Notes under the pieces: generated by a model
What the model was told of the DNA's origin: nothing
The model's database searches: none
What the model saw: the letters and a program-made list of their open reading frames with translations, nothing else
Position numbers and translations under genes: made by a program
Source: Psychrobacillus glaciei
GTDB taxonomy: Bacteria > Bacillota > Bacilli > Bacillales_A > Planococcaceae
NCBI RefSeq assembly: GCF_008973485.1
Contig: NZ_CP031223.1
Location: 3,669,501 to 3,733,500, forward strand
DNA: 64,000 nucleotides
Reading direction: 5' to 3'
Shown: piece after piece, positions 5,291 to 8,868 of the stretch
Numbering within the stretch: the first letter of the stretch is position 1
Layout: every line of letters begins with the position of its first letter

Positions 5291-5420
5291 AAAAACACTC
5301 CTATTTCATTGGAACGAATTGATTTTAACTTACTAAACATTCACCTCATTATAAAGCTATAGCGTTGCAACGACAACCCCTATCTATTACACTTAAGAGA
5401 GAATTGAGGTGCGAATCATC

Positions 5421-7355
5421 GTGATTGTTTTACAAGTCAATCAAGTAACAAAGTCCTTTAACGGGGAAGATATATTAACAAACGTTAAGTTAGAGGTTCA
5501 AGACCGGGATCGGGTCGCACTCGTCGGCCGAAACGGTGCTGGAAAATCTACTTTACTTAAAATAATTGCTGGTGAAATGTCGTATGATTCCGGCGATATT
5601 ATTATGCCCAAAAACATTCGATTAGGCTATCTAGAACAACATGCTGGACTGGAGTCAAAGCTCTCCATTTGGGAGGAAATGAAGTCCATCTTCGGTCATC
5701 TAATCGACTCCGAAAAAGAGCTTCGTTCATTAGAATCACAAATGGCCGATCCTTCCGTATACGAAGATTCAGAAGTTTATGCTCGAGTAGCCGGTACATA
5801 CGACGAGCTTCAACTTGCTTTTAATGAAGCAGGCGGTTATCGATTCGAATCTGACATTCGCTCTATCCTTCACGGGATGCAGTTCTTCCCTGAAGATTAC
5901 GATAAGCCTGTGCAAGCATTATCTGGCGGTCAAAAGACAAGACTTGCACTTGCGAAAATGTTGCTTAGCAAACCCGACTTACTTATTTTGGATGAGCCTA
6001 CCAATCATTTAGATATAGCTACATTAAACTTTTTAGAAAATTATTTAAAAAACTATAGTGGTGCGATTCTAATCGTTTCGCATGACCGCTACTTTTTAGA
6101 TCAAGTAGTGAATTTTGTATATGAAGTTTCTCGACATAATGTAGCAAGATATGTTGGTAATTACAGCAGCTACCTAGATCAAAAAGCAAAAAACTACGAA
6201 CGAGATAAAAAAATGTATGAACGACAACAAGAGGAAAAAGCGAAGTTGGAAGACTTCGTCAACAAGAATTTAGCACGTGCCTCTACAACGAAAATGGCAC
6301 AGTCGAGACGTAAGGTAATTGAAAAAACAGACTGGATGGATTCACCAGACGGCGAAGAAAAATCAGCTAACTTTGGCTTTATAATTGACCGTCCAAGCGG
6401 AAACGACGTACTTCGACTGGAAGAAGTTTCTGTCGGATATCCAAATAAAACGGTCTCTACCAATATTTCGTTTTCTGTTTATAAACAAGACCGTATTGCG
6501 CTTGTCGGGCCAAATGGCGTTGGTAAATCTACCTTGCTGAAAACCCTAATGAAACAACTTGATACTGCCGGCGGTAAGATTCAATACGGAACAAATGTCC
6601 AATTTGGGTACTACGACCAAGAACAAGCAGCTCTAACCGGCAATAAAACAGTGCTACTAGAATTGTGGGATGAATGGCCACTGATGAATGAAAAGGATGT
6701 CCGCTCTGTATTGGGACGTTTCCTTTTTAGCGGAGATGATGTGCAAAAAACAGTTTCTACGTTATCTGGTGGAGAAAAAGCAAGACTTGCCCTAGCTAAG
6801 TTAATGCTATTAAAAGCGAACACATTAGTGCTAGATGAGCCTACCAACCATTTAGACTTAGATAGTAAGGAAGTTCTTGAAAATGCCTTACTAGAGTTTC
6901 CTGGAACAATTCTTTTCGTGTCGCATGACCGTTACTTTATTAATAGAATCGCTACAAAAGTTATTGAGTTATCAAAAGACAGCTCTGCTCTTTTCTTAGG
7001 TGATTATGATTACTACCTAGAAAAGATAGAAGAGCTTGAAGAACTTGCATTAGAAAATGCAGTCATTGAAAAAACGGTTGTCGTTAAGACAAGTACTTCA
7101 ACGATTGATAAAGAAGCGAAGAAGAAAGAACGCCAACTCCGACGCCAATTGGAAGAACTAGAATCACAAATTCCAAAAGTGGATTCAGAAATAGCTTCTA
7201 TAGAAGAAAAGCTTTGCGATCCAGTAATTTTCCAAGATCACGAAGCGGTCCAACATTTACAACTTGAATTGGATGAATTGAAAGTAAAACAAGATGATCT
7301 GTCGAATGAATGGCTGGAATTGCAAGAGCTATTAGAAGAAATAGCTTCAAATTAA
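5421..7355 (+). CDS. ABC-F ATP-binding protein (YdiF-like)
   Basis: A soluble protein with two ABC domains and no membrane part, typical of ABC-F proteins that act on the ribosome. Domain 1 has Walker A GRNGAGKST, signature LSGGQKTRLALAK and Walker B LLILDEPTNHLD. Domain 2 has GPNGVGKST, LSGGEKARLALAK and TLVLDEPTNHLD. A charged linker joins them, and the last 90 residues form a predicted coiled coil. I set the start at GTG 5421 because the GAGGTG ribosome binding site at 5406-5411 lies 9 bases before it; the in-frame GTG at 5409 is inside that site. Neighbours match ydiF of B. subtilis. Translation-factor and antibiotic-protection roles both occur in this family, and the sequence does not decide between them. 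Confidence 0.93.
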   Translation: MIVLQVNQVTKSFNGEDILTNVKLEVQDRDRVALVGRNGAGKSTLLKIIAGEMSYDSGDIIMPKNIRLGYLEQHAGLESKLSIWEEMKSIFGHLIDSEKELRSLESQMADPSVYEDSEVYARVAGTYDELQLAFNEAGGYRFESDIRSILHGMQFFPEDYDKPVQALSGGQKTRLALAKMLLSKPDLLILDEPTNHLDIATLNFLENYLKNYSGAILIVSHDRYFLDQVVNFVYEVSRHNVARYVGNYSSYLDQKAKNYERDKKMYERQQEEKAKLEDFVNKNLARASTTKMAQSRRKVIEKTDWMDSPDGEEKSANFGFIIDRPSGNDVLRLEEVSVGYPNKTVSTNISFSVYKQDRIALVGPNGVGKSTLLKTLMKQLDTAGGKIQYGTNVQFGYYDQEQAALTGNKTVLLELWDEWPLMNEKDVRSVLGRFLFSGDDVQKTVSTLSGGEKARLALAKLMLLKANTLVLDEPTNHLDLDSKEVLENALLEFPGTILFVSHDRYFINRIATKVIELSKDSSALFLGDYDYYLEKIEELEELALENAVIEKTVVVKTSTSTIDKEAKKKERQLRRQLEELESQIPKVDSEIASIEEKLCDPVIFQDHEAVQHLQLELDELKVKQDDLSNEWLELQELLEEIASN

Positions 7356-7385
7356 AAAGATACCCATAAAGGGTGTCTTTTTTCG
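7354..7385 (+). terminator. Terminator of the ABC-F gene
   Basis: Arms 7358-7365 and 7371-7378 form an 8-bp stem with one G-T pair and a 5-base loop, followed by a T-run, directly behind the stop codon. Confidence 0.8.
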
Positions 7386-7600
7386 TTGAGTCCACAAGTA
7401 TATGAATAACCTGGTCTCGGCTAGTAGCAAATTGGTCTCGAAGTGATATTTAGTGTAAATAATTGCACCTAGTTAGCATATTTCCATATTAAAAAGGACG
7501 TTTTTGCATATAAGCCTTAAAATATGTCGAACATAGCGGCATAACAATTTGTCGATTCTTGCCCATATATGTTGGTCAACCCCCTTTTTTCACCTAATCT

Positions 7601-7771
7601 TTTTCCACAAATTTATTCACATCAAAAAATGAGTAATAGCAACATATCAACAGACTTATACACACTATCCACAGATTTGAGAGTTTAACATCTACGGAAT
7701 TGTGTATAAAAAAGACACTATATATTGAAACAGCAATAGTTATACACAACTTATCCACAGATTGTGTATAA
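7601..7771. promoter_or_regulatory. DnaA-box cluster, probable DnaA-binding locus
   Basis: Eight 9-mers fit the DnaA box within 171 bases. Six match TTATNCACA exactly: 7613-7621, 7656-7664, 7740-7748 and 7751-7759 on plus, and 7701-7709 and 7763-7771 on minus. Two have one mismatch: TTTTCCACA at 7601-7609 and CTATCCACA at 7665-7673. The stretch 7386-7851 otherwise has no credible gene. From memory, B. subtilis has DnaA-box clusters away from oriC that bind DnaA and temper initiation, one of them next to gcp (tsaD), the gene beside this cluster. Confidence 0.8.
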
Positions 7772-7810
7772 GTACGAATGTTCTCTCTTGACAATCGAAA
7801 AAAACCCTGT

Positions 7811-7847
7811 TAAAAAATCCCCTTTTCTTGTCGAAGAAAAGAGGATT
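7811..7847 (-). terminator. Terminator of the tsaE-tsaB-rimI-tsaD operon
   Basis: Arms 7816-7829 and 7834-7847 form a 14-bp stem with one mismatch and a GTCG loop. The A-run at 7811-7815 is the T-run on the minus strand. It lies 4 bases behind the tsaD stop codon. Confidence 0.8.
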
Positions 7848-7851
7848 CCGT

Positions 7852-8868
7852 TTACCAATTATGAAGTTCCATCCCTGGTCGACCATTCATCGACAAATCT
7901 CCTGTTTTCCCTGCGGAAAACATAGAGGTACCTGCTGCCGCAATCATTGCTGCATTATCTGTGCACAGTGAGATTGGTGGAACATAAAATGGAATATTTT
8001 CTTTTGCAAATGTTTCTTCGAGCGCACGGCGTAGTCCTTTATTCGCAGCAACCCCACCTGCAGCGATGACTTGCTTTACATTGAACTCACGGGCTGCTCT
8101 TAACGTTTTTGCCGTTAACACTTCCACTACACTTTGTTGAAAACCAGCTGCTAAATGGTTGGGATTGATTTCTTCTCCGCGCTGCTCCGCATTATGTTGA
8201 TAATTAATAACCGCTGATTTCAAACCACTGAAACTAAAATCATATGATCCTTCTTCGAGCCAAGCTCTTGGAAATGCCACTGCACCGTCACTTTCATTTG
8301 CCAGTCGATCAATATGAGGACCACCAGGGTATGGAAGATTCAATACACGAGCCACTTTATCGTATGCTTCACCAGCAGCATCATCTCGCGTTTCGCCGAT
8401 TAATTCAAACTGCCCGTCAGCTTTCATTAGTACAAGTTCGGTATGTCCTCCTGAAACAACTAATGCAAGAAGCGGAAATTCCATTGGCTGCACAAGTGCA
8501 TTCGCATAAATATGACCGGCAATATGATGCACGCCAACAAGTGGAAGACCGTTTGCAAAGGAAAAAGCTTTTGCTGCATTTATTCCAATTAAAAGCGCTC
8601 CTACAAGTCCTGGTCCTTCTGTAACTGCTACTGCATCCAAATCTTTTGGCGACATATCCGCTTGTTTCAATGCTTCTTCAATAACAATTGTAATTTGTTC
8701 TACATGATGTCTTGAAGCAATTTCTGGGACAACTCCACCAAAGCGCTTATGGCTTTCAATTTGAGAAGCGACCACATTAGATATAATCTCATGCCCATTT
8801 TTCACGATGGATGCTGCTGTTTCATCACAGCTTGTTTCTATTCCTAAAATATATTGATCTTTTGTCAT
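7852..8868 (-). CDS. tsaD: tRNA threonylcarbamoyladenosine transferase subunit TsaD
   Basis: A 338-residue TsaD (Gcp/Kae1), which transfers the threonylcarbamoyl group from TC-AMP to A37 of ANN-decoding tRNAs together with TsaB and TsaE. The ASKHA fold begins [14 protein letters not shown]. The metal ligands are His115 and His119 in HHIAGH, with the later aspartate in CTDNAAMIA. Its start overlaps the rimI stop by 4 bases. The gene order tsaE-tsaB-rimI-tsaD is the Bacillus ydiBCDE order. Confidence 0.97.

Follow-up and report, generated by a model that had tools for sequence, protein, structure and literature searches.

Several clusters of DnaA boxes lie outside oriC in Bacillus subtilis. According to extracts of PMC5295017 and PMC13220808, B. 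subtilis without six of these clusters initiates replication early. In the extract of PMC5295017, the strong phenotype is seen only after all six have been removed, one cluster put back at various places partly relieves the early initiation, and the clusters that matter significantly have yet to be identified in B. subtilis. About ten-fold overproduction of DnaA caused no over-initiation in B. subtilis (PMC13220808, in the part available). A model of pure titration is weakened by this result. The gcp cluster is reportedly among the six extra-oriC clusters deleted in Okumura 2012.

The closest described locus is region 4 in Table 1 of PMC4447404, given there as "downstream of gcp; downstream of ydiF", which has 10 sites and was bound by B. 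subtilis DnaA in vitro (Kd 0.15 µM for ATP-DnaA and 0.33 µM for the ADP form; 16-fold preference for ATP at 55 nM). Strong, ATP-preferring binding of DnaA at the gcp-ydiF gap is thus an in vitro result of those authors for B. subtilis. The available part of the same paper also has ywlC and yydA among the B. subtilis DnaA regions. An earlier note on the DNA treated here, made from the letters alone, had pointed to a cluster of this kind beside gcp, and region 4 bears it out. Escherichia coli datA acts via a nucleoprotein complex, and the regulators known in B. subtilis target the oligomerisation of DnaA, not its nucleotide state (PMC5295017, extract). For conservation of the array described below, or for an NrdR site in it, no description was found in the titles and abstract openings of the open-licence literature, a body of work that excludes most subscription papers.

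The box array between ydiF and tsaD

The window is the whole stretch of Psychrobacillus glaciei DNA that was analysed, 64,000 nucleotides long; its own family is called f1 here. A recount confirmed eight boxes in both orientations within the 171 bp at 7601-7771, i.e., six exact copies of TTATNCACA and two copies with one mismatch (Table 1). The gap that holds them had been described as otherwise empty, and it is: 496 bp long, it lies between the facing 3' ends of ydiF and tsaD and has no ORF of at least 70 aa. Both terminator hairpins fall outside the box array.

Six of the 13 exact boxes in the window fall in the array. Whole-window shuffles gave a mean of 3.71 and a maximum of 10 exact boxes per 64 kb, and one-mismatch boxes are not enriched across the window (90 vs. 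86 expected). In the genome that holds the array (G000; 4,351,338 bp in two contigs), the exact box occurs 273 times and the reversed pattern 213 times. With 273 exact boxes in the whole genome, six per 171 bp are far beyond chance, as the earlier note had supposed: at the genome-wide density, the probability of at least six exact boxes in 171 bp is 2e-15 per place.

Table 1. Positions in the window of the array, its neighbouring genes and associated blocks
Feature	Position	Strand	Remarks
ydiF, ABC-F gene	5409..7355	+	ORF; name from the earlier note and from synteny with PMC4447404
ydiF terminator hairpin	7354..7382	+	-15.1 kcal/mol, z -5.6
Upstream block CATATATGTTGGTCAA, ahead of R1	7564..7579	+	Co-occurs with NrdR-like box; -1.1 bits on RNR-derived matrix
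R1, DnaA box TTTTCCACA, one mismatch	7601..7609	+	Kept in place in many f1 relatives
R2, exact DnaA box TTATNCACA	7613..7621	+	42-43 bp ahead of R3 in 30 of 31 f1 arrays
R2b, degenerate box ATATCAACA	7644..7652	+	12 bp ahead of R3; column conservation 1.59 bits
R3, exact DnaA box	7656..7664	+	Sequence match
R4, DnaA box CTATCCACA, one mismatch	7665..7673	+	Abuts R3
R5 place (box in relatives)	7688..7696	+	The window has no recognisable box here
R6, exact DnaA box	7701..7709	-	Conservation weak, 0.59 bits
NrdR-like box ACACTATATATTGAAA	7715..7730	+	Between R6 and R7; resembles RNR operators
R7, exact DnaA box	7740..7748	+	Sequence match; f1 alignment
R8, exact DnaA box	7751..7759	+	Sequence match; f1 alignment
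R9, exact DnaA box	7763..7771	-	Highest conservation of all boxes, 1.88 bits
Conserved block GTACGAATGTTC, abuts R9	7772..7783	+	1.59 bits; in 33 of 37 f1 intervals
TTGACA	7788..7793	+	Follows R9 in many f1 arrays; 15-genus conservation 0.58 bits
tsaD terminator hairpin	7814..7849	-	-17.9 kcal/mol, z -4.7
tsaD (gcp)	7852..8868	-	ORF; relatives in 61 of 61 genomes

Other identities for the gap were considered and rejected. A scan for the sigma-70 consensus found no promoter-like site in it and no RNA family reached its gathering score there, so that a promoter or an RNA gene in the gap was dropped. A second oriC was discarded since dnaA and dnaN are not adjacent to the array (dnaA is at C1:22) and DnaA-trio-like repeats are lacking near the boxes on either strand, as judged with one simple pattern, (T/A/G)AG at least three times. 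LexA operators have the form GAAC-N4-GTTC. An SOS operator of this kind was rejected for GTACGAATGTTC, given that the blocks in the f1 alignment read GTAC (L028, L032, and L039 have no block); the pattern shows no genome-wide enrichment either (13 vs. 24 reversed). The block itself recurs adjoining R9 in another family (L102), and its pattern occurs once in an interval that has no array (L062).

Conservation in the family and in the class

The interval 3' of tsaD was read in 37 genomes of f1, in 44 genomes that represent 40 further families of the class (24 taken from the set of relatives and 20 from a class sample of 161 genomes), and in a named set consisting of the best 80 of 295 records. 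The named set is mostly Bacillaceae and includes Paenibacillus sp., one Pseudomonas sp., and MAGs; its query was a B. subtilis TsaD sequence, which has 99% identity to B. spizizenii TsaD. Intervals in which ydiF was not found were cut at 600 bp. TsaD is present in 61 of 61 relatives and in 161 of 161 class genomes.

The earlier note had linked a selected role to conservation of the site at the same gene in another family, and many families of the class indeed carry the site at the same gene pair. The tsaD 3' interval contains at least two exact boxes in 36 of 37 f1 genomes, in 78 of the 80 records of the named set, and in 25 of the 44 genomes from other families. The exact boxes total 165, 309, and 91 in these three sets, vs. 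0, 2, and 2 for the reversed motif, and an abutting pair of the R3/R4 type is present in 31 of 37, 76 of 80, and 18 of 44 genomes, respectively. Fewer than two exact boxes remain in 19 of the 44 other-family genomes, and the element is therefore dispensable in many lineages.

The cluster accompanies ydiF as a converging neighbour: it is present in 118 of 120 genomes having this arrangement and in 21 of 41 without it. Seven f1 genomes were counted as lacking ydiF; in longer stretches of two of them (G003 and G008) ydiF is 1540 and 1487 bp off and the array is kept, and in two others (G004 and G009) ydiF was not seen in the longer stretches either. In Bacillus testis (L172), all marked boxes of the tsaD-ydiF gap are on the other strand, which looks like an inversion of the array.

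Spacing of the boxes

According to the alignment, f1 arrays have a common plan. R1 is followed by R2 (+12), R2b, R3 (43 bp after R2), the abutting R4, R5 (31 or 32 bp after R3), and the reversed R6; the right end comprises R7, R8 (+11), and the reversed R9 (+12). Spacing was counted in 31 of the 37 f1 arrays, leaving out L022, L025, L032, L034, L039, and L044, which have no abutting pair or no R9 at the allowed mismatch. The distance from R3 to R9 is 107 bp in 27 arrays, 108 bp in one, and 118-119 bp in three, and that from R2 to R3 is 43 bp in 28 and 42 bp in two (R2 was not found in one). The flanks of the same 31 arrays vary in length, from 68 to 312 bp towards tsaD and from 120 to 1291 bp towards ydiF. 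In three genera (L038, L040, and L042) the stretch from the NrdR-like box to R9 is longer by 11-12 bases, which is about one helical turn. In L039 the array is shortened (102 bp).

The R2-R3-R4-R5 spacing recurs in Bacillaceae. Among the 76 genomes of the named set with an abutting pair, 62 have a box at -43/-42, 64 have one at +31, and 48 have one at -55/-54; over the offsets from -120 to 120 in these 76 genomes, the median occupancy is 0 and the 90th percentile 5. Mean conservation was calculated over 15 of the 19 f1 genera (L032, L034, L039, and L044 left out; one genome for the genus of the window). It is 1.49-1.88 bits for R1-R4 and R7-R9, 0.67 bits for the spacers, and 0.50 bits for the flank.

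The length of the spacers is kept despite the drift of their letters and the main change within f1 is about one helical turn, which suggests DnaA-DnaA contacts along the DNA. Spacing kept nearly to the base pair across many families argues for a selected structure, and it supplies exact spacer changes with which such a structure may be probed.

A plain DnaA sink, the spacing of which is kept by common descent alone, is a possible but somewhat improbable explanation of the array. The many boxes of high-affinity type would suit a sink, and so would the early initiation of B. subtilis after loss of six clusters and its partial relief by one re-added cluster (PMC5295017, extract). The same reading has difficulty with spacers whose letters are near the level of the flank and whose length is nevertheless kept, with a main length change of about one helical turn, and with a geometry common to f1 and Bacillaceae. 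Titration by itself is not a sufficient explanation of the fixed geometry.

Chromosomal position and other clusters

The array of G000 is 654.9 kb away from dnaA, i.e., at 15.1% of C1 if this contig is circular. The distance between array and oriC is 8.4-16.7% in the 11 cluster-bearing genomes having dnaA and tsaD on one contig, five of these distances wrapping round the end of a contig that was assumed to be circular. Eight f1 genomes (G000, G003, G004, G008, G012, G015, G032, and G035) have the array on one arm, and three (G027, G037, and G049) on the other.

G000 has four places, belonging to three loci (the tsaD array, ywlC, and rlmH), at which two exact boxes on the same strand are separated by 1-31 bp, vs. 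one place for the reversed pattern. The earlier note had named many equally dense intergenic sites as a ground for refutation; this search for close pairs gave two loci besides the tsaD gap. For comparison, oriC of G000 has 5 exact boxes ahead of dnaA and another 2 between dnaA and dnaN.

The ywlC/tsaC cluster (G000:C1:705.2-705.6 kb; L004 1147-1529) has 7 exact boxes in 383 bp, and the array and this cluster make two DnaA-box clusters at t6A-synthesis genes. At least two exact boxes were found in 22 of 30 ywlC loci (31 genomes searched); this cluster is likewise kept, and conservation is thus not peculiar to tsaD. The ywlC cluster overlaps the gene start, a place at which DnaA can influence transcription.

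The rlmH (yydA) cluster (G000:C1:4296.7-4297.1 kb; L070 2710-3092) has 6 exact boxes in 383 bp; it lies 35 kb ahead of oriC, with rlmH on one side and the gene for a trypsin-PDZ protease on the other. A further 6 exact boxes in 384 bp are found at an unassigned site, C1:422.2-422.6 kb (L071 1200-1583), where they form two copies of a pattern about 286 bp apart; no ORF of at least 60 aa runs across these boxes.

The NrdR-like box and the upstream block in f1

The exact sequence ACACWATATATWGWRW has two places in the genome, the first in the array and the second some 0.4 kb ahead of the gene for the large subunit of ribonucleotide reductase (RNR); at one mismatch it has 13 matches, vs. 5 for the reversed sequence. 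A matrix was derived from 46 sites (23 pairs) at 23 of 30 f1 RNR loci. The sites were picked with an NrdR consensus. The top match of this matrix in the 64-kb window is the array box, with 16.2 bits, and the next match has 13.2.

The box and the upstream block are found together in 31 of the 37 f1 genomes, at a GGTCAA-to-core distance of 142-144 bp in 30 and of 102 bp in one. An f1 genome was scored as having none if either block was absent; five of the six so scored lack both, and the sixth, L044, shows a stray GGTCAA but no array. L022 was scored as having both by way of a one-letter variant of the box, and of the two GGTCAA in L019 the one in register was taken. The six genomes fall in three places of a FastTree tree of the joined TsaD and ydiF proteins. 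The two blocks appear to have been lost together in these three places, a reading that depends on a tree with low support at some nodes. Of 250 f1 genomes searched by pattern, 144 gave matches, chance matches included, and these belong to 15 of 19 genera (reversed pattern, 41 of 250); among the matches listed, those containing DnaA boxes span 152-154 bases.

An NrdR box outside f1 was rejected: the strict core CWATATATWG is present in 29 of 37 f1 intervals and in none of the 80 named and 44 other-family intervals (124). The gene for NrdR itself is present in 41 of 41 f1 genomes. In the extract of PMC12051234, NrdR needs two boxes with a spacer of 14-17 or 24-27 bp and otherwise binds far more weakly, and binding of E. 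coli NrdR drops drastically when either box is mutated. A canonical partner box was likewise discarded, as the matrix scan found none at these spacers in any of the 31 f1 arrays (best score 1.5 bits, vs. 7.9-23.2 for RNR sites). With no canonical partner box, a low score for the upstream block, and a core that is absent outside f1, binding of NrdR at the array is kept as a lead and not as a result.

A store of DnaA gated by NrdR is a tentative alternative, about as doubtful as the plain sink. In this reading dATP-NrdR on the mid-array box would split R1-R6 from R7-R9, so that a plentiful supply of dNTPs sets DnaA free; in a variant NrdR perhaps loops to the upstream block. The match of the box to the f1 RNR operators, its exact occurrence in G000 at the array and the RNR promoter only, the constant distance to the upstream block in 30 of 31 arrays together with the absence of both at three places of the tree, and the general presence of the NrdR gene in f1 all fit such a gate. 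It is opposed by the lack, in all 31 arrays, of the second box required by the rule in the extract of PMC12051234, by an upstream block that scores poorly and is about 14.5 turns off, by the absence of the strict core from the named and other-family intervals, and by f1 genera that have no box and still keep NrdR.

Proposed role of the array

The array consists of DnaA boxes in fixed order, strand, and spacing, placed between converging genes and conserved in many families. It probably corresponds to the gcp-ydiF cluster of B. subtilis, i.e., a platform for an ordered oligomer of ATP-DnaA between two terminated genes. In P. glaciei the array would bind DnaA, ATP-DnaA would assemble on it as an ordered oligomer, and the platform would do so at about 8-17% of the chromosome from oriC, where this is measurable. 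By holding DnaA, or by changing it, the array would delay initiation at oriC. Its spacing would be kept through DnaA molecules touching along the array, beyond the number of boxes that a sink provides. The poor conservation of R6 and the missing R5 box of the window count against such a platform. The tsaD array has no detectable local promoter, which favours a role in the control of DnaA itself. A role in timing may be predicted for P. glaciei by analogy with the B. subtilis strain lacking six clusters, as far as the extracts describe it.

In the family of the window a second protein, possibly NrdR, might occupy a mid-array position and tie the array's capacity for DnaA to dNTP levels. It is unlikely, on balance, that the platform is gated by dNTPs in this way, NrdR being wired into an ancient fixed array away from any RNR gene and precursor supply setting the amount of free DnaA. 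If the NrdR-like box works, nucleotide supply would be tied to initiation, a link that is an old open question.

A site like E. coli datA or DARS, which would alter the nucleotide bound to DnaA, is unlikely, even though the fixed geometry, the strong ATP preference of the B. subtilis site (PMC4447404, available part), and the action of datA via a nucleoprotein complex would agree with it; the extract of PMC5295017 has the B. subtilis regulators working on oligomerisation and not on nucleotide state. Control by the boxes of a local promoter, for a small RNA or an antisense transcript to tsaD, is very improbable, since the TTGACA that follows R9 in many f1 arrays is poorly conserved over the 15 genera, neither the sigma-70 nor the RNA family scan of the gap gave a candidate, and both terminators shut the gap.

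Comparison with known systems

The array may be set beside four kinds of known locus. With the NrdR operators of RNR genes the array shares the sequence of a box; it differs from them in having no second box 3-4 turns away, and no RNR gene was found alongside. E. coli datA and DARS are also DnaA-box loci in non-coding DNA, and they control DnaA from outside oriC (PMC5295017, extract); the genes around them are different.

The B. subtilis clusters at ywlC and yydA have their equivalents in G000 at ywlC/tsaC and rlmH/yydA. These are upstream of gene starts or over them, unlike the tsaD array, which has the 3' end of a gene on either side. The B. subtilis gcp-ydiF cluster has the same converging gene pair and multiple TTATNCACA boxes. 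B. subtilis itself was absent among the loci returned, and the Bacillus locus used for comparison is that of B. spizizenii (L109). It has neither the GGTCAA and GTAC blocks nor the CWATATATWG core of most f1 arrays, but its boxes at 34, 77, 86, and 108 give R2-43-R3-9-R4-22-R5, which is the f1 spacing.
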